Shown: one piece after another, positions 6,944 through 15,772 of the stretch
Numbering within the stretch: the first letter of the stretch is position 1
Layout of the letters: each line of letters starts with the position of its first letter
From: Ornithinimicrobium sediminis
Lineage (GTDB): Bacteria > Actinomycetota > Actinomycetes > Actinomycetales > Dermatophilaceae
Reading direction: 5' to 3'
Assembly: GCF_021272345.1 (NCBI RefSeq)
Contig: NZ_JAJSDQ010000001.1
Location: 558,001 to 622,000 of the forward strand
Length of the DNA stretch: 64,000 bases
Notes under the pieces: generated by a model
Told to the model about the DNA's origin: nothing
Seen by the model: the letters and a program-made list of their open reading frames with translations, nothing else
The model's database searches: none
Program-made: the position numbers and the translations under genes

Positions 6944-7609
6944 ATGCGGGGGCTGGCCTTGGCGGCGTCGCTCGCCCTCGTCGTCGTCTCCTGGGACGAA
7001 CGGGGCGCCTGGTTCTGGGTGGGCGTGGCTCTGGTCGTCCTCAACGTGGGCGGGTTCCTGGCAGGCAGGGTCCGAGCCGACGAAGCCGACCGGCCCACTG
7101 CGTCGCGGGTGTCCGGCGACCTCCCCCCCGACGCCGAAGGCGACGGGCAGTCGCATCGCCTGGATGAGCTGCTGTCCTTGCCGGGCGTGACCGCTGCCTT
7201 CGCGGCCGGGCCCCCGCTGTGGCGGCAGGTGAGCCACCTCGATGACACCCGCTTCGAGCCGACGACCGCACAGGAGCTGGCGGCCTACATCTGGCTCGAG
7301 TATGACGATGGGTGGGCGATCGGCCGCGACCGCACAGGAGCTGGCGGCCTACATCTGGCTCGAGTATGACGATGGGTGGGCGATCGGCCTCGGCGACGAG
7401 GTCCAGCCCTACCTCGATCTCGACATCGACGAGGAGGACGACCCGGTGGTCGCCGTCCTGAGGAACCATCCGGCGGTCGAGGACGCCTTCCATGCCGATC
7501 GCGAGGTCTACATGGTCGAGCAGCGCCGCCCCTCAGCACCGAAGAGTTCGCCGAGCTCGCCGCCCGAGCGCTGGTCGCACACCACGTGCACGCAGCAGCG
7601 CGCATCTAG
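6944..7609 (+). pseudogene. Frameshifted membrane-anchored protein of unknown family
   Basis: The N-terminal part encodes two hydrophobic segments (ALAASLALVVVSW and WVGVALVVLNVGGFLAG) followed by an acidic soluble region ending AYIWLEYDDGWAIG. A 64-bp tandem duplication (7263-7389) repeats that last segment and shifts the frame. Reading resumes as LGDEVQPYLDLDIDEEDD with HPAVEDAF. A second shift near 7529, apparently one lost C in a C-run, is needed to reach LSTEEFAELAARALVAHHVH and the TAG at 7607-7609. Without these two lesions the gene would encode about 200 residues. I do not recognise the family. Confidence 0.65.
7263..7389 (+). repeat. 64-bp direct tandem duplication
   Basis: Bases 7263-7325 and 7327-7389 are identical (63 bp each), a repeat period of 64 bp including one intervening base. 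The period is not a multiple of three, so the duplication inserts 21 codons plus one base and breaks the host gene. Confidence 0.95.
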
Positions 7610-9691: not shown

Positions 9692-10537
9692 TCAGGCGTC
9701 CCGTCTGCGCAGCAGCAGCGCGGCGGCGGCCAGGGCGAGCACGACATACGCCATGAACACCGCATAGCCCGTCCAGGGTGACAGCGCGACCGGTGCGCCG
9801 GCCAGGGCCGTCGTCACCTCCGGGGTCGCGATGCGCTCACCGGCGGTGGAGGGCAGGTACGGGTACATGCGGGTGAACCAGTCGGAGGTCATCATCAGCA
9901 GCTGCACCAGCGTGGAGAGCATGAGCAGGATGCCCAGCGTCGCGGTGATCGCTCCCGCGGTGTGCCGCAGCAGCGCGCCGATGCCCAGCCCGAGCAGGCC
10001 CACCCCGGCGAGGTAGAGCCCGGTGCCCCAGAAGAGACGCTGCACCTGGGGGTCCGACAGGTCGGCCGCTGCGGCGCTTCCCAGGAGGGGGTAGCTCACC
10101 AGGAACGACAGGGCCACGCCGACGACCCCGAGCACGAACGACAGCGCGGCGATGAGCACAGCCTTGGCCGCGAGCACCGGGACCCGTCGCGGCACGGCGG
10201 CGAGGGTGGACCGGATCCGCCCGGTGGAGTGCTCCCCGGTGACGACCAGGGTGCCGAGCACGGCGACGACGACCTGCGCGAAGCTGTACCCCAGACCGAT
10301 GGCCATGGTGCCGTCCGGCGCAGTGCCGCTGTCGGGCGGCGCGACGGTCGCAGCGACGGCCATCAGACTCGCGATGAGCACCATCGCGACCAGGGTCGCC
10401 AGCACGGTCCAGTAGGTCGACCGCAGGCTCCAGAGCTCGATCCACTCCGCGTGCAGCACACGCGGGAAGGTCACCGGCGCCGTCACGAGGGTGCGCGCCG
10501 GCGCCGGCGCCCGGGTCACCTCCGCGTGCGACGTCAT
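9692..10537 (-). CDS. ABC-2 type transporter permease
   Basis: The 281-residue protein begins with an ATG overlapping the stop of the ATPase gene by four bases (ATGA, 10534-10537). It has about six membrane helices with the ABC-2 layout: first helix in STYWTVLATLVAMVLIASL, an amphipathic VTGEHSTGRIRSTLAAVPRR coupling segment (E-x-x-T/S-G-x-x-R), then four more helices ending ALAAAALLLRRRDA. With the adjacent ATPase it should form a membrane exporter or bacitracin/NatA-NatB-like efflux system. The substrate is unknown. Confidence 0.87.
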   Translation of the reverse strand: MTSHAEVTRAPAPARTLVTAPVTFPRVLHAEWIELWSLRSTYWTVLATLVAMVLIASLMAVAATVAPPDSGTAPDGTMAIGLGYSFAQVVVAVLGTLVVTGEHSTGRIRSTLAAVPRRVPVLAAKAVLIAALSFVLGVVGVALSFLVSYPLLGSAAAADLSDPQVQRLFWGTGLYLAGVGLLGLGIGALLRHTAGAITATLGILLMLSTLVQLLMMTSDWFTRMYPYLPSTAGERIATPEVTTALAGAPVALSPWTGYAVFMAYVVLALAAAALLLRRRDA

Positions 10538-11460
10538 GACCGTGACTCCTGGAGGGACTGCTCGGAGCGGTACTCCACCTCGCTGTGCGTCAGCGAGAGA
10601 TAGGCGTCCTCCAGCGACCCGCCCAGCGGAGTGAGCTCGTGCAGCGGCACGCCGGACGCCGCAGCGGCCTCCCCGATCTCCGCGCTGGTCATCCCGCACA
10701 CCTCCAGCGCACCCGGGCCCACCGGCACCACCTCTGCCCTGCCGGCGGTGAGCAGGTCGACCAGCTCGCCGGCCCTGGGCGAGAGCACCCGCACCCGGTC
10801 GTCCTGGGTGCTGCGCACGATCTCCTCCACCGGCCCTGCGGCGATGATCCGCCCCCGACCGATCACGAGCAGCTCGTCGGCCGTCTGGGCCATCTCGCTC
10901 ATCAGGTGCGAGGAGATGAAGACGGTCCGGCCCTCACGCGCCAGGTGACGCACCATGGTCCGCACCCACTTCACACCCTCCGGGTCCAGACCGTTGACCG
11001 GCTCGTCGAGGATCAGCGTGCGCGGGTCGCCCAGCACCGCGGCCGCGATGCCCAGGCGCTGCCCCATCCCCAGCGAGAAACCACCGACCCGCCGGCGGGA
11101 CACGCTCTGCAGCCCGGTCAGCTCGATGACCTCCTCGACGCGACGCCGAGGGATGCCGTGGGTCGCGGCCAGGGCGCGCAGGTGCTGGTAGGCGCTCCGC
11201 CCCGGGTGCACGGCCCGCCCGTCCAGGAGCGCACCGACCTCACCCAGCGGGGACCGGTGCTGCGCGTACGGTCTGCCGTCCACCGTGACCGAGCCCGACG
11301 TCGGGTGGTCCAGGCCGACGATCATCCGCATGGTGGTGGACTTGCCCGCACCGTTCGGGCCGAGGAACCCGGTGACCGACCCCGGTGAGACGGTGAAGGT
11401 GACCCCGTCGACCGCTGTCGTGTCGCCGTACCGCTTCGTCAGCTCGTGAGCCTCGATCAC
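10534..11460 (-). CDS. ABC transporter ATP-binding protein (NatA/BcrA type)
   Basis: The 308-residue protein begins MIEAHELTKRYGDTTAVDGV. The Walker A is GPNGAGKST at about 34-42, the signature is SLGMGQRL, Walker B is LILDEPVNGLDP and the switch His is in ISSHLMSE. The C-terminal 80 residues form the accessory domain common to BcrA-type ATPases. It is the first gene of a two-gene exporter operon with the permease at 9692-10537. The MarR-family gene at 11627 lies upstream on the same strand, 166 bp away, and is a plausible regulator, though its own operator faces the rhodopsin. Confidence 0.92.
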   Translation of the reverse strand: MIEAHELTKRYGDTTAVDGVTFTVSPGSVTGFLGPNGAGKSTTMRMIVGLDHPTSGSVTVDGRPYAQHRSPLGEVGALLDGRAVHPGRSAYQHLRALAATHGIPRRRVEEVIELTGLQSVSRRRVGGFSLGMGQRLGIAAAVLGDPRTLILDEPVNGLDPEGVKWVRTMVRHLAREGRTVFISSHLMSEMAQTADELLVIGRGRIIAAGPVEEIVRSTQDDRVRVLSPRAGELVDLLTAGRAEVVPVGPGALEVCGMTSAEIGEAAAASGVPLHELTPLGGSLEDAYLSLTHSEVEYRSEQSLQESRS

Positions 11461-11626: not shown

Positions 11627-12103
11627 TCAGCCGGGGTCGGCCGTCACGGATGCCGTCAGCCGGGTGCGCACCGCGCTCGTGACCTGGCGTAGCGCCACGG
11701 TCGCCACCTCGCGCTCCTCGTCGGTGAGGTCACCGGTGGCCGCACCCACCATGGCAGCGAAGTCCGCGTGGATCGCAGCGACGGCACGATGGCCCTCGTC
11801 GGTCAGCTCGAGGCACAGGCTGCGTCGGTCGTCCGGGTGAGGCACCCGGTGCAGCAGGCCCGCAGTGACCAGGCGGGTGGAGATGCCGGTGATGGCGCCG
11901 TTGGTCACCGAGAGGTCGGCGGCCAGCTGCCGAGGCGTCAGGCTGCCGGACTCGGCGATGCGGAACAGGCTCCGCAGCTCGCTGGTGGACAGTCCGTGGT
12001 CGGCGGCGATGCGGCGGCGGTCCTCCTCCAGTGCCCGGAGCAGGTGGATGACGGCATCGGGCAGACCGGTCAGCAGGTGCCTGCGCCTGCACATCGCGGT
12101 CAT
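11627..12103 (-). CDS. MarR family transcriptional regulator
   Basis: The ATG at 12103 has GGAGGG about 5 nt upstream and gives 158 residues; longer starts are not needed. The winged-helix domain is complete: LRSLFRIAESGSLTPRQLAADLSVTNGAITGISTRL forms the helices and recognition helix, and the wing is VPHPDDRRSLCLELTDEG with the family D-x-R-S/R motif. MarR proteins repress neighbouring or divergent genes and release DNA on binding small phenolics or on oxidation. It faces the rhodopsin gene across a 7-5-7 palindrome (12198-12216), so control of both genes is the obvious hypothesis. Confidence 0.9.
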   Translation of the reverse strand: MTAMCRRRHLLTGLPDAVIHLLRALEEDRRRIAADHGLSTSELRSLFRIAESGSLTPRQLAADLSVTNGAITGISTRLVTAGLLHRVPHPDDRRSLCLELTDEGHRAVAAIHADFAAMVGAATGDLTDEEREVATVALRQVTSAVRTRLTASVTADPG

Positions 12104-12197
12104 AGGGGCCCTCCATCGGTCCGGGGACGCCGCATCCCACCGCCGGCTCACTGACCCCGCGATCGTACGACAGGGGGAAGATACTTCACTTATCATA

Positions 12198-12216
12198 TGC
12201 TTTAATTAGTAAAGCA
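12198..12216. promoter_or_regulatory. Palindromic operator in AT-rich divergent promoter
   Basis: TGCTTTA (12198-12204) and TAAAGCA (12210-12216) form a perfect inverted repeat around a five-base spacer. The repeat lies in the only strongly AT-rich patch nearby (about 12178-12220). It sits between the MarR gene (start 12103, minus) and the rhodopsin gene (start 12275, plus). Size and symmetry suit a MarR dimer. Confidence 0.65.
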
Positions 12217-12274
12217 CTACCGAGCTCCTGCCCACGCAACCCGCTGGCGGCTCGATGAACCGATGGAGGATCCC

Positions 12275-13120
12275 GTGATTCCCGACGTCCTGTCGCAGGG
12301 TCAGTACGACACCGTCTACAACTTCCTGTCGCTCGTGATCGCCTCACAGCTGTTCACGGCTGTGTTCCTGCTCATCTCGCTCCCGCGCATCCTGCCTCGC
12401 TACCGCCAGGCAATCACCGTCGCGATCGTCGTCTGCGGCATCGCGGCCTACCACTACTTCCGCATCTTCGACTCGTTCAAGGAAGCCTTCGTCACCGACG
12501 CGGTCGGCGGGGCCGGCGTCTACGTGCAGGCCGAAGGCGCGTCGTTCAACGAGGGCTACCGCTACGTCGACTGGCTGCTGACGGTGCCGCTGCTGCTCGT
12601 CGAGCTGATCGCGGTCCTGGCTCTGGCGCGCACACTGCAGTCGCGGCTGCTCGCCCGCCTCGTCCCGGCCGCGGTCCTCATGATCGCCCTCGGCTACCCC
12701 GGCGAGGTCAGCGACGACAACACCGTGCGGATCGTCTTCTTCGTCCTGTCGATGATCCCCTTCCTCTACATCCTTTACGTCCTCTTCGTCCAGCTCACCG
12801 CGTCGCTCGACCGCCAGCCGGAGGGCGTCCGCAGGTCACTGAGCAACCTGAGGTGGCTGCTGGTGCTCAGCTGGACGGTCTACCCCGTCGCCTACCTGCT
12901 GCCCATGCTCGACATCTCCGGGGGGGACGCGTGGGTCGGCAAGCAGATCGGCTACTCGGTCGCCGACATCGCGGCCAAGTGCGTCTACGCGCTCATCATC
13001 TACCGCGTCGCCCGGATCAAGTCCTTCGCCGACGACCCGGAGTTCGCCGGCGTCGAGTCCTCGCACGAGGACCTGGTCCCCGCGCACGACGACGTGGTCG
13101 TGCCCGCCCGCTCCAGTTAG
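12275..13120 (+). CDS. Type-1 microbial rhodopsin, predicted outward proton pump (DTE motif)
   Basis: The GTG at 12275 has GGAGGA four bases upstream; an ATG at 12263 would add four residues. Numbered from the GTG (281 residues), seven helices are visible. Helix B contains AAYHYFRIFD, with His60 equivalent to proteorhodopsin His75. Helix C, YRYVDWLLTVPLLLVEL, has Arg96, Asp99 (acceptor), Thr103 and Glu110 (donor), the DTE set of proton pumps. Helix F has W200-x-x-Y203-P204. Helix G has Asp231-x-x-x-Lys235, the retinal Schiff-base lysine. Leu107 is at the colour-tuning site where Leu gives green absorption. A long B-C loop and a charged C-tail are present. No carotenoid cleavage or crt genes are in the window, so the retinal supply is elsewhere or exogenous. 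Confidence 0.93.
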   Translation: MIPDVLSQGQYDTVYNFLSLVIASQLFTAVFLLISLPRILPRYRQAITVAIVVCGIAAYHYFRIFDSFKEAFVTDAVGGAGVYVQAEGASFNEGYRYVDWLLTVPLLLVELIAVLALARTLQSRLLARLVPAAVLMIALGYPGEVSDDNTVRIVFFVLSMIPFLYILYVLFVQLTASLDRQPEGVRRSLSNLRWLLVLSWTVYPVAYLLPMLDISGGDAWVGKQIGYSVADIAAKCVYALIIYRVARIKSFADDPEFAGVESSHEDLVPAHDDVVVPARSS

Positions 13121-13141
13121 AGGACGGTGCAGCCGGGGCTC

Positions 13142-14332
13142 TCAGGACACGTGGCCCTTCAGGATCTGGTGCCAGTAGAGCCCCGGCTGCAGGTAGCGGT
13201 CGAAGAAGAAGGTGCTCGCCCGGGGCCGTGCCAGGTCGGGGAACGGGACGCTCGGCTCCGGCTGCCCGGCACGGTCGAACTCGGCGAGCACCAGACGACG
13301 GCGCGACGTGGTCACCGGCGCCACGGTGTAGCCGTCGTAGTGGCGCAGCGGACGGCCCAGACGCGCTGCCGCGATGTTGTCGGCCACGACGGGCGCCTGC
13401 TTGCGCAGCGCACCACCGGAGGGCATGGCGTCCGCGTCGGCCACGTCGCCCAGGCCCCACACCCGGGGGTAGGCCAGGTGCTGCAGGGTCCGCGGGTCGA
13501 CCGCCAGGAAGCCACCGTCGGCCGAGCCGGCCAGGCCACTGTCGGCGACCCACGACGGCGCGCGGTGCGGCGGCGTGAGATGCCAGGCGTCGTAATGCAG
13601 CCGTTCCTCGCCGGTGGGCGTCCGCAGGTGCAGCTCCCGCGTGTGGATGTCCACGGACTCGACCGTGGTGCCGGTGCGCACGTGCACCCCGTAGCGCTCC
13701 GCGGCCGCGCGCAGCTCCCGGTCGGCACGGGCGTGGTCGACCAGATGGTCCGCCTGGACGACGAGCTCGACCGTGACCGCCGGCAGCACCCCCTGCCGGC
13801 GCCAGTGGTCGGCCGCGGTGAAGAGCGGCTTGAGCCCCACCGGGGCGCAGGGCACCTGCCCGTCGGCGACGGAGAAGACCGCCGTGCCACGGGTCAGGGC
13901 CGACATCAGCGACCACGTCTTGGCAGCGAGCTCGGTGACGTAGTTGGTCGACGCATACGGCGTGGCGACCGCATCGCGTGAGCCGGGGACGGCCGCCCAG
14001 TCGACCTCCGAGCCCGGACAGACCACCAGGTCGGTGTAGCTCAGCTCCCCTCCCCCGGCGAGCCGCACACACGAGCCGTCGGCGTCCACCCCGGTGACGC
14101 GGTCGGCATACCAGCGGCAGCCGTCCGGGACGACGTCGGCCTGCGGCCTCTCGAGGTCCGCGAGCTCGGCCAGGCCCGAGCCCGCGTAGGACAGCAGAGG
14201 GCGGTAGCGGTGCACCGGCGAGGGCTCGACCAGGGCCAGGTCGCGGCACCCGTCCCGCAGCAGCCGGGCGGCCAGCGAGATGCCGGCGTTGCCGCCGCCG
14301 ACGACGACCACGTCGTGGTGCTGGGTGCTCAT
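13142..14332 (-). CDS. FAD-dependent pyridine-nucleotide-disulfide-type oxidoreductase (SQR/NDH-2-like)
   Basis: The 396-residue protein has an N-terminal Rossmann FAD motif, VVVVGGGNAGISLAARLL (G-x-G-x-x-G at about 12-17), and the E-x-x-x-x-H/YRPLLSYAGSG segment of the sulfide:quinone reductase/NDH-2 superfamily. It also has a second dinucleotide-type region and WGLGDVADADAMPSGGAL with LRKQAPVVADNI near the C-terminus. Cys162 (QVPCAPVGLK, followed by FTAADHWRRQGV) sits where SQRs carry a redox cysteine. I see no equivalent second cysteine in the APVVADN region, so true sulfide oxidation is uncertain. It converges on the rhodopsin gene with 21 bp between stops. Confidence 0.82.
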   Translation of the reverse strand: MSTQHHDVVVVGGGNAGISLAARLLRDGCRDLALVEPSPVHRYRPLLSYAGSGLAELADLERPQADVVPDGCRWYADRVTGVDADGSCVRLAGGGELSYTDLVVCPGSEVDWAAVPGSRDAVATPYASTNYVTELAAKTWSLMSALTRGTAVFSVADGQVPCAPVGLKPLFTAADHWRRQGVLPAVTVELVVQADHLVDHARADRELRAAAERYGVHVRTGTTVESVDIHTRELHLRTPTGEERLHYDAWHLTPPHRAPSWVADSGLAGSADGGFLAVDPRTLQHLAYPRVWGLGDVADADAMPSGGALRKQAPVVADNIAAARLGRPLRHYDGYTVAPVTTSRRRLVLAEFDRAGQPEPSVPFPDLARPRASTFFFDRYLQPGLYWHQILKGHVS

Positions 14333-14467: not shown

Positions 14468-15772
14468 ATGGGACGCCTGCTGAGGGTCCTGCTCCTGACC
14501 TGCCTGGTCCTGCTGACCGGCGGACCCCTCGCGGCTGCGGTGACCCCGGCCCCCGACGGCGAGGTCGAGCTGGTGCTCTTCTGGGGTGACGGCTGCCCGC
14601 ACTGCGCGGTGGAGAAGGCGTGGCTGGAGCAGGCCGTCCAGGACCACCCCGGGCTGGTGGTCACCGACTACGAGGTCTGGTACGACGAGGCCAACCGCGA
14701 CCTCCTGGTGCGCACCGCTGCCGAGCGAGGCTTCGAGGCCACCGGGGTCCCGGTGACGCTCGTCGGCGACCGGCACTGGGTCGGCTGGTCCGACGCGATG
14801 CAGGCTCAGGTCGAGGCGGAGGTCGAGGCCAGGCTGGCCGGTGCCGCCCAGCGTGCGGCCACACCGAGCAGCGGGCAGGTCTCCACGGTCAGCGTGCCCC
14901 TCGTCGGCGAGGTCACCGTCGGCGCCGACTCGCTCGTGCTGTCCACCCTCGTCATCGGCTTCGTCGACGGCGTCAACCCCTGCTCGCTGTGGGTCATCAC
15001 CGTGCTGCTCGCGATCGTCGTGCGCACCGGCAGCCGTCGCCGCGTCATGCTGGTCGGGCTGACCTTCCTCACCGTGACCGCAGCGATGTACGCGCTCTTC
15101 ATGGCCGGCATCTACACCGCGATGGGGGTGCTCTCCCACCTCGGTGCCGTGCAGGTCGTCGTGGCCCTCGTCGCCGGCGTGTTCGGGCTGGTCAGCATCA
15201 AGGACTACTTCGCCTTGAAGCAGGGCATCTCCTTCAGCATCCCCGACTCCGCCAAGCCTGGCATCTACCACCGGATGCGCTCTGCGGCCGGGCAGTCGGC
15301 GCTGGTGCCCGCACTGGCCGCCACGGTCGCCCTGGCGGTCGGCGTCTCCCTGCTGGAGACCCCGTGCACCGCCGGCTTCCCCGTGCTGTGGACCGGCCTG
15401 CTGGAGGCCAACGGTGTGAGCACCGCACAGGCCGCCGGCCTGTTCGCGCTCTACATGGCGCCCTTCCTGCTCGACGAGCTCGTCATCTTCGCGGTGGCCG
15501 TCGTCACGCTGCGGGCCACGAAGATGCAGGAGCGGCACGGACGTCTGCTCAAGCTCGTCGCCGGCACCATGATGCTCGCCCTCGCCATCACCGTGCTCGT
15601 CAGCCCCGAGGCGATGAGCAGCCCCCTGGTCGCCCTCACCGTCTTCGCTGCAGCCTTCGCGGTGGCGGCGCTCGTGCACGCCGTGACGCTGGCCGTCTCC
15701 GGCGGCGGCACCTCCGCACCGACACCACGCGCTCCCGGCACCGCGACCCGGCCGAAGGCCGGCGCACGCTGA
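14468..15772 (+). CDS. Thioredoxin-like domain fused to CcdA/DsbD-type membrane domain
   Basis: The 434-residue protein opens with a signal peptide (RLLRVLLLTCLVLLTGGPLAAA). An exported thioredoxin-fold domain of about 110 residues follows, with Cys43-Pro-His-Cys46 in FWGDGCPHCAVEK. A membrane part of six to eight helices carries paired cysteines in GVNPCSLWV and ETPCTAGFPVLW, as in CcdA/ScsB electron carriers. The design suggests that electrons pass from cytoplasmic thioredoxin through the membrane cysteines to the exported CPHC domain. Substrates might be cytochrome c, copper proteins or disulfide isomerases. It is divergent from the flavoprotein gene. Confidence 0.85.
   Translation: MGRLLRVLLLTCLVLLTGGPLAAAVTPAPDGEVELVLFWGDGCPHCAVEKAWLEQAVQDHPGLVVTDYEVWYDEANRDLLVRTAAERGFEATGVPVTLVGDRHWVGWSDAMQAQVEAEVEARLAGAAQRAATPSSGQVSTVSVPLVGEVTVGADSLVLSTLVIGFVDGVNPCSLWVITVLLAIVVRTGSRRRVMLVGLTFLTVTAAMYALFMAGIYTAMGVLSHLGAVQVVVALVAGVFGLVSIKDYFALKQGISFSIPDSAKPGIYHRMRSAAGQSALVPALAATVALAVGVSLLETPCTAGFPVLWTGLLEANGVSTAQAAGLFALYMAPFLLDELVIFAVAVVTLRATKMQERHGRLLKLVAGTMMLALAITVLVSPEAMSSPLVALTVFAAAFAVAALVHAVTLAVSGGGTSAPTPRAPGTATRPKAGAR

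Follow-up and report, generated by a model that had tools for sequence, protein, structure and literature searches.

The window analysed here, a 64,000-nt stretch of the Ornithinimicrobium sediminis genome in whose coordinates all sequence features are given, carries a rhodopsin gene divergent from a gene for a MarR-family regulator, with a 19-bp palindrome between the two. We interpret the pair as an acquired cassette in which MarR, bound to the palindrome, would repress both promoters, a control that formerly would have extended to the retinal synthesis genes crtY and blh, and the rhodopsin as an antenna-less pump in a host without a known retinal route of its own; we put the probability of this interpretation at about three in four.

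Results

On the minus strand, marR (11627..12103; Pfam PF01047, 6e-13) starts at ATG 12103, which is preceded by GGAGGG; this start was set by comparison with relatives together with the ribosome site. The rhodopsin gene occupies 12275..13120 of the plus strand and encodes 281 amino acids from a GTG start with GGAGGA upstream. The two starts, on opposite strands, are separated by 171 bp. Between them lies the palindrome TGCTTTA-ATTAG-TAAAGCA (12198..12216, without strand), perfect over 7+7 bases, with its centre at a distance of 68 bp from the start of rhodopsin and 104 bp from that of marR. The initial annotation of the window had likewise described a MarR regulator that faces the rhodopsin across a palindrome. 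Even when one mismatch is tolerated, the pattern of this palindrome occurs only once in the window (chance 0.01 to 0.05), and the only exact match of TNNYTTANNNNNTAARNNA in the whole genome (3,529,222 bases) is this site. At one mismatch, the pattern showed no excess in the genome (2 occurrences vs 4 for the reversed pattern), and no regulon beyond the unit was seen there. A tentative, weak sigma-70-like promoter on the plus strand (12167..12196, ACGACA-18-TATCAT), with 9 of 12 consensus matches, ends just 5' of the palindrome; a consensus scan of 12090-13200 found this one where 0.1 were expected.

The pairing of marR with rhodopsin is conserved among relatives. We compared the best 80 loci of the 320 rhodopsin relatives obtained in the scan (81 rhodopsins with that of the window; individual loci are denoted by L numbers), and in 33 of the 80 a divergent MarR gene lies directly upstream of the rhodopsin; L006, L028 and L050 are among the loci that end close upstream of the rhodopsin, so that a few of the absences could be contig ends. 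Leaving aside the rhodopsin cluster itself and antisense frames, MarR formed the largest cluster of neighbours (34 loci including the window), and the next one comprised at most 14 loci. In the rhodopsin tree, one set of 37 rows (support 98/87) contains the window and all MarR-linked rows, 34 in total, and three rows that lack MarR; the set may also be taken as 39 rows, five of them without MarR. The MarR label changes 4 times on this tree, compared to 26.2 times in shuffles.

Within this set, the window rhodopsin joins those of three Nesterenkonia (100/99), which are its nearest relatives in named genomes at 86% identity. In a quick MarR tree of 39 rows, the rhodopsin-linked MarRs form one clade (33 rows, with the partial L021 sequence omitted; Shimodaira-Hasegawa approximate likelihood ratio support 95), and the window again stands beside Nesterenkonia (96). 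Because the window groups with Nesterenkonia in both trees, the marR-rhodopsin pair most likely was transferred together, as a unit. Rhodopsin was detected in one of the 31 genomes of the genus and in 7 of the 186 genomes of the family, the other six showing at most 57% identity. Plasmid carriage was considered and rejected, the matches amounting to two records at only 45% identity. Several observations on individual loci may be recorded here. The rhodopsin of Subtercola vilae lies within the MarR clade and is divergent from a gene (L036:7344-7898) that by eye appears to encode a Fur/PerR-type regulator replacing MarR; the two identical rhodopsins of Lacisediminihabitans changchengi (L054 and L055) are each accompanied by MarR on different scaffolds; and L019, L028, L034, L037 and L042 bear the names Acidobacteria, Bifidobacterium breve or Planococcus while their rhodopsins fall among actinobacterial ones, which makes the names or the binning doubtful.

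The operator-like site is conserved along with the gene pair. A 19-bp palindromic matrix, trained on 30 non-redundant upstream regions after four near-identical regions had been dropped, reached 16.7 bits per region, compared to a mean of 8.1 (largest 8.4) in 15 mononucleotide-shuffled sets, and in leave-one-out tests a site was recovered at p<0.01 in 26 of the 30 regions. The consensus over 34 regions is approximately TAACTTA-n5-TAAGTTA, with an unconserved 5-bp centre, and the window site has the same 7+5+7 layout; the predicted site falls within the 16-20 bp range expected of a palindrome in a divergent intergenic region. The upstream regions of MarR-less rhodopsins (46 of 47, one being too short) score -1.2 bits on average and 8.0 at best, and the five MarR-less members within the MarR clade score -8.5 to -0.8 bits. 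Because rhodopsins without MarR have no site at that strength, MarR and the site go together, and we infer from this pattern that MarR binds 12198-12216. Both the gene order and the recovered sites therefore agree with the proposal that the pump has a MarR of its own, divergently encoded on the other side of a likely operator. A separate case is an orphan MarR of Cryobacterium levicorallinum, close to the rhodopsin-linked MarRs, upstream of which two operator-like sites (L132:2027-2077) score 14.6 and 11.2 bits.

The same type of site precedes retinal synthesis genes in relatives. Blh was sought in 74 genomes (L025 was left out, and L048, L055, L074, L075, L077 and L078 were not searched separately, the named strains being represented by other loci) and was found in 11 of the 32 genomes with MarR vs 27 of the 42 without it (p=0.018). 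MarR linkage is not claimed here as a marker of Blh-less genomes, because there are too few independent tree pairs to separate it from kinship. The Blh regions of the 11 MarR-carrying genomes were compared to those of 20 of the 27 MarR-less ones as controls. In three genomes of Subtercola boreus and in L019 (the four loci being L012, L013, L014 and L019), rhodopsin, crtY and blh are consecutive on one strand, with 0.2 to 0.6 kb separating rhodopsin from the crtY segment that could be aligned, and presumably form one transcript. In L197, L200, L205 and L206, crtY-blh is located apart from rhodopsin, with its own operator-like site upstream. Overall, a site of at least 12 bits occurs before crtY-blh in 8 of 11 loci with MarR vs none of 20 without (p=2e-5) and, when only the separate crtY-blh loci are counted, in 4 of 7 vs none of 20 (p=0.002); the background, after masking of the L042 crtY site and of 400 bp upstream of every rhodopsin, is two such sites in 1.15 Mb. 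With a cut-off of 8 or 10 bits, the comparison of all 11 loci with the 20 controls gives p=0.004. Pfam matches in five loci confirm the cyclase crtY, and both Pfam and NCBIfam identify Blh above cut-off in L200. Furthermore, the crtY leader of L206, past the operator, resembles the first codons of rhodopsin (0 of 1000 shuffles equalled the resemblance in each of six comparisons), which fits the descent of at least one separate crtY-blh operon from an operator-rhodopsin-crtY-blh ancestor. Because crtY-blh stands behind the same operator in 8 of 11 loci vs none of 20 controls, MarR most likely represses the opsin jointly with retinal synthesis, as far as sequences can tell. A different arrangement was seen in a MarR-less Cryobacterium group (L067, L069, L072, L073 and L211), where rhodopsin is divergent from crtY (and blh) and different palindrome-like stretches, such as TAGCTAGGTTACCTAATTA, lie between rhodopsin and crtY, perhaps as the site of another regulator.

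The window rhodopsin combines the Bac_rhodopsin family signature (PF01036, 7e-42) and the Schiff-base lysine K235 with the DTE motif and the histidine of proton-pumping type (H60, D99, T103 and E110), the complete residue set at precisely the numbers assigned to it earlier; all 81 rhodopsins, the window's included, share these five residues. The nearest solved chains are 9hfk, 6nwd (Gloeobacter rhodopsin) and 9wfa, and homology to Gloeobacter rhodopsin and xanthorhodopsin-type pumps (6nwd, 3ddl, 7ytb) extends along nearly the whole length (E 1e-73 for 6nwd), with equivalents of H87, D121, T125, E132 and K257 of Gloeobacter rhodopsin retained. In contrast, the antenna glycine, Gly178 of Gloeobacter rhodopsin, is Phe156 in the window protein, which thus departs from a carotenoid antenna site; this position is Gly in 77 of the 81 rhodopsins and Phe solely in the window and the three Nesterenkonia. 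In Gloeobacter rhodopsin, G178W has been reported to abolish carotenoid binding and to improve pumping, and Phe at this position has been noted as a feature of green proteorhodopsin that is shared by 2% of 150 Gloeobacter rhodopsin homologs (PMC9151804). By these characters, the window rhodopsin is assigned to the xanthorhodopsin-type pump lineage, not to the antenna-bearing pumps, and is predicted to export protons. Between the window and the three Nesterenkonia, the ratio of nonsynonymous to synonymous substitution rates (dN/dS), estimated by one method and averaged over both lineages, is 0.11 to 0.13 for rhodopsin, which indicates purifying selection on this gene, and 0.32 to 0.35 for marR (also by one method).

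Retinal genes were sought in the whole window genome, which is rated 99.99% complete, and no match was obtained for Blh, for an RPE65-type oxygenase or for the phytoene/squalene synthase family, in accord with the earlier remark that blh and crt genes are absent from the neighbourhood. The same searches were positive elsewhere: for Blh in 8 of 24 genomes (7 others of actinobacterial type), in 30 of 50 genomes of a further set and in 0 of 14 controls; for the synthase family in 21 of 23 other genomes and 7 of 14 controls; and for RPE65 in 1 of 24 genomes and 2 of 14 controls. In the three Nesterenkonia, Blh was not found and the synthase family is present. By the families tested, the window genome appears to be without a known route to carotenoids or retinal, and the cells may scavenge retinal, produce it by an undescribed route, or do without it. 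Missing genes do not prove the absence of retinal, because Aurantimicrobium minutum, which has no blh but carries C50 carotenoid genes, was found to make retinal; for Rhodoluna lacicola, pumping has been reported only with retinal added (PMC7734400).

The regulator has both the MarR winged-helix domain and the corresponding fold and is a MarR-family member on either count; its predicted model adopts a MarR fold with a predicted local distance difference test (pLDDT) value of 91.8. A structure search with this model (VIA-align) returned MarR-type folds only among the 50 matches listed and gave no hint of a ligand, and the sequence has no close relative in PDB (best 1.5e-8). Thiol-redox MarRs of the OhrR/MosR type are recognised by a conserved reactive cysteine. 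No cysteine column is conserved across the 34 rhodopsin-linked MarRs, one of them partial; this type was rejected for lack of the conserved cysteine, and the suggestion that MarR senses a redox signal finds no support as far as thiol sensing is concerned. A small-molecule inducer is possible. His112, located within helix 102-122 of the predicted model, is invariant across 27 aligned MarRs and, by eye, is replaced by Tyr in two orphan MarR paralogs; we regard this residue as only a lead.

Downstream, a flavoprotein resembling sulfide:quinone oxidoreductase (SQR) is encoded on the minus strand (13142..14332), converging on rhodopsin with 21 bp between its end and the rhodopsin stop, a spacing that the initial annotation also gave. 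Among solved structures, the best sequence matches are to human-type sulfide:quinone oxidoreductases (SQOR; E 4e-58); the match covers the whole length, the first redox cysteine is common to both proteins and the equivalent of Cys379 is Ala. The flavoprotein thus departs from the two-cysteine SQR pattern. Eighteen full-length genus homologs of the same type also lack the second cysteine, and a further homolog, L108, has both. No flavoprotein homolog was detected in any of the 80 rhodopsin loci, of which the contigs of L011, L038 and L058 end less than 600 bp from rhodopsin. Matches of any strength were found in 25 of the 31 genus genomes. Apart from the window genome, 30 genomes of the genus were compared, all of them without rhodopsin, and 19 of these have a homolog with E below 1e-60, which we count as strong. 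Of the marR-rhodopsin-flavoprotein order that had been proposed for comparison among relatives, the first two members hold (33 of 80 loci) and the third does not (0 of 80); linkage of the flavoprotein to rhodopsin, and with it the idea of a partner of the pump, was rejected on these counts and on the missing cysteine. The comparison indicates that the flavoprotein is a neighbour outside the conserved unit.

Among the other genes of the window, an ABC-transporter ATPase (10537-11460) lies beyond marR, an arrangement also seen in L042 (4984-5892, 65% identity), although the L042 and window rhodopsins are not nearest relatives. The protein encoded at 14468-15769 looks DsbD-like by eye, with CPHC close to the N-terminus and what appear to be several membrane helices; it has no Pfam or NCBIfam family match at E 0.001. 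A head-to-tail repeat of 64 bp (98% identity) at 7263-7390 causes a frameshift in the gene at that place.

Discussion

The results suggest a scenario for this locus. In its older form, marR would have been divergent from rhodopsin-crtY-blh, so that one repressor covered the opsin and the two final reactions of the retinal pathway. In several lineages, crtY-blh would then have moved or been lost, and the line of the window and Nesterenkonia would have kept marR and the opsin, a two-gene cassette that was probably gained horizontally. A MarR dimer on the 19-bp palindrome would repress its own and the rhodopsin promoters until a ligand releases it, and the antenna-less, xanthorhodopsin-type proton pump, if active in these cells, would need retinal from outside or by an undescribed route.

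Several observations weigh against this scenario. Three of the four loci with rhodopsin, crtY and blh on the same strand represent one species, Subtercola boreus; L201 and L202 have only degenerate sites before crtY, and L207 has none; and a cut-off of 8 or 10 bits lets three controls pass, so that the comparison of separate loci weakens to 4 of 7 vs 3 of 20 (p=0.05). The rhodopsin-like remnant is clear in L206 only; L197 shows it more weakly, and L200 and L205 do not show it. Four of the 30 regions (L032, L034, L042 and L046) fail the leave-one-out test at 0.01. Taken by itself, the pattern shows no genome-wide enrichment (13 exact matches vs 29 for the reversed control in 16 genomes), 8 of the 16 genomes having none; eight of the 13 matches are marR-rhodopsin sites, one apiece in 8 genomes. 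Similar palindromes also adjoin other MarR genes (L022, L132). Alternatively, MarR might control itself and the opsin alone in response to a general stress or energy signal, the sites before crtY-blh being due to chance or belonging to other paralogs; the palindromes near other MarR genes and the single exact site in the window genome, with no excess at one mismatch, agree with such a narrow role. We consider this rather unlikely, given the sites of at least 12 bits before crtY-blh in genomes with MarR and in none of the 20 without, the same-strand loci L012, L013, L014 and L019, and the rhodopsin-start remnant in L206.

Other alternatives concern the rhodopsin and its surroundings. The opsin might work without retinal, for instance as a phospholipid scramblase, in which case MarR would regulate a membrane protein and light would be irrelevant in this genome: actinorhodopsin has been reported to scramble lipids with no need of chromophore or light (PMC12805836), and no known retinal or carotenoid route was found in the nearly complete window genome. 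The retention of all five pump residues in 81 of 81 rhodopsins and the purifying selection make this quite unlikely, and blh-less Aurantimicrobium minutum made retinal all the same, although its C50 carotenoid genes are unmatched in the window genome (PMC7734400). That the cassette is a relic, recently acquired without a chromophore and heading for loss, would agree with its presence in a single genus genome and with the lack of known retinal genes; with an open frame, every pump residue in place, a low dN/dS (averaged over both lineages) and a perfect palindrome, it seems very unlikely. A phototrophic-respiratory unit of marR, rhodopsin and the flavoprotein, with quinone reduction by the latter, would account for the 21-bp convergent arrangement and the SQR-type sequence but is hardly credible for a gene that lies on the opposite strand, lacks the second SQR cysteine, has no homolog in the 80 loci and is strongly matched in genus members that have no rhodopsin.

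The preferred scenario, a cassette once controlled jointly with retinal synthesis, combines known elements. In Marisediminicola antarctica, a cluster of xanthorhodopsin, lycopene cyclase and beta-carotene monooxygenase has been described, with the same gene order as in Subtercola boreus and L019; a MarR regulator there adjoins the C50 carotenoid cluster instead of rhodopsin, and the available part of that report describes no operator (PMC6669644). The rhodopsin-cyclase-oxygenase order is therefore already in print, and the window pump adds one more member to a known type. CrtR of Corynebacterium glutamicum and its orthologs are autoregulated MarR-type repressors of crt genes that are released by geranylgeranyl pyrophosphate (PMC7432914). 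The likeness lies in an actinobacterial MarR protein that is divergent from pigment genes and represses them (PMC7432914), whereas the predicted targets of the window MarR are the opsin and crtY-blh. The reported CrtR site, CCCATGAGAATTTATTTTT, also differs from our predicted consensus (PMC7432914; the comparison covered sites, with the CrtR protein sequence outside it). The CrtR-type operator has 15 bp with a central TTAA; the centre of our 34-region motif is unconserved, and the window site holds TTAA off centre. Searches of open-licence PubMed Central, which does not cover most subscription journals, brought up no description of a regulator and operator that jointly cover opsin and retinal genes. 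We regard MarR with its operator over opsin and retinal genes as a variant of the known MarR divergon.

As to the signal, an unlikely possibility is that MarR is a retinoid- or apocarotenoid-responsive repressor that once matched the opsin to the cell's own retinal pathway and that, in retinal auxotrophs, of which this bacterium would be one, allows the opsin to be made only when retinal from neighbours arrives. If true, a retinoid-responsive MarR would amount to regulated scavenged phototrophy. The findings touch on two open questions, namely how bacterial opsins are regulated and why retinal genes are absent in a number of opsin-bearing genomes, and a repressor specific to opsin and retinal synthesis, acting through an operator that is conserved and can be read from the sequence, would render both testable in culturable actinobacteria, where the ligand of MarR would reveal what the cells sense before investing in light.

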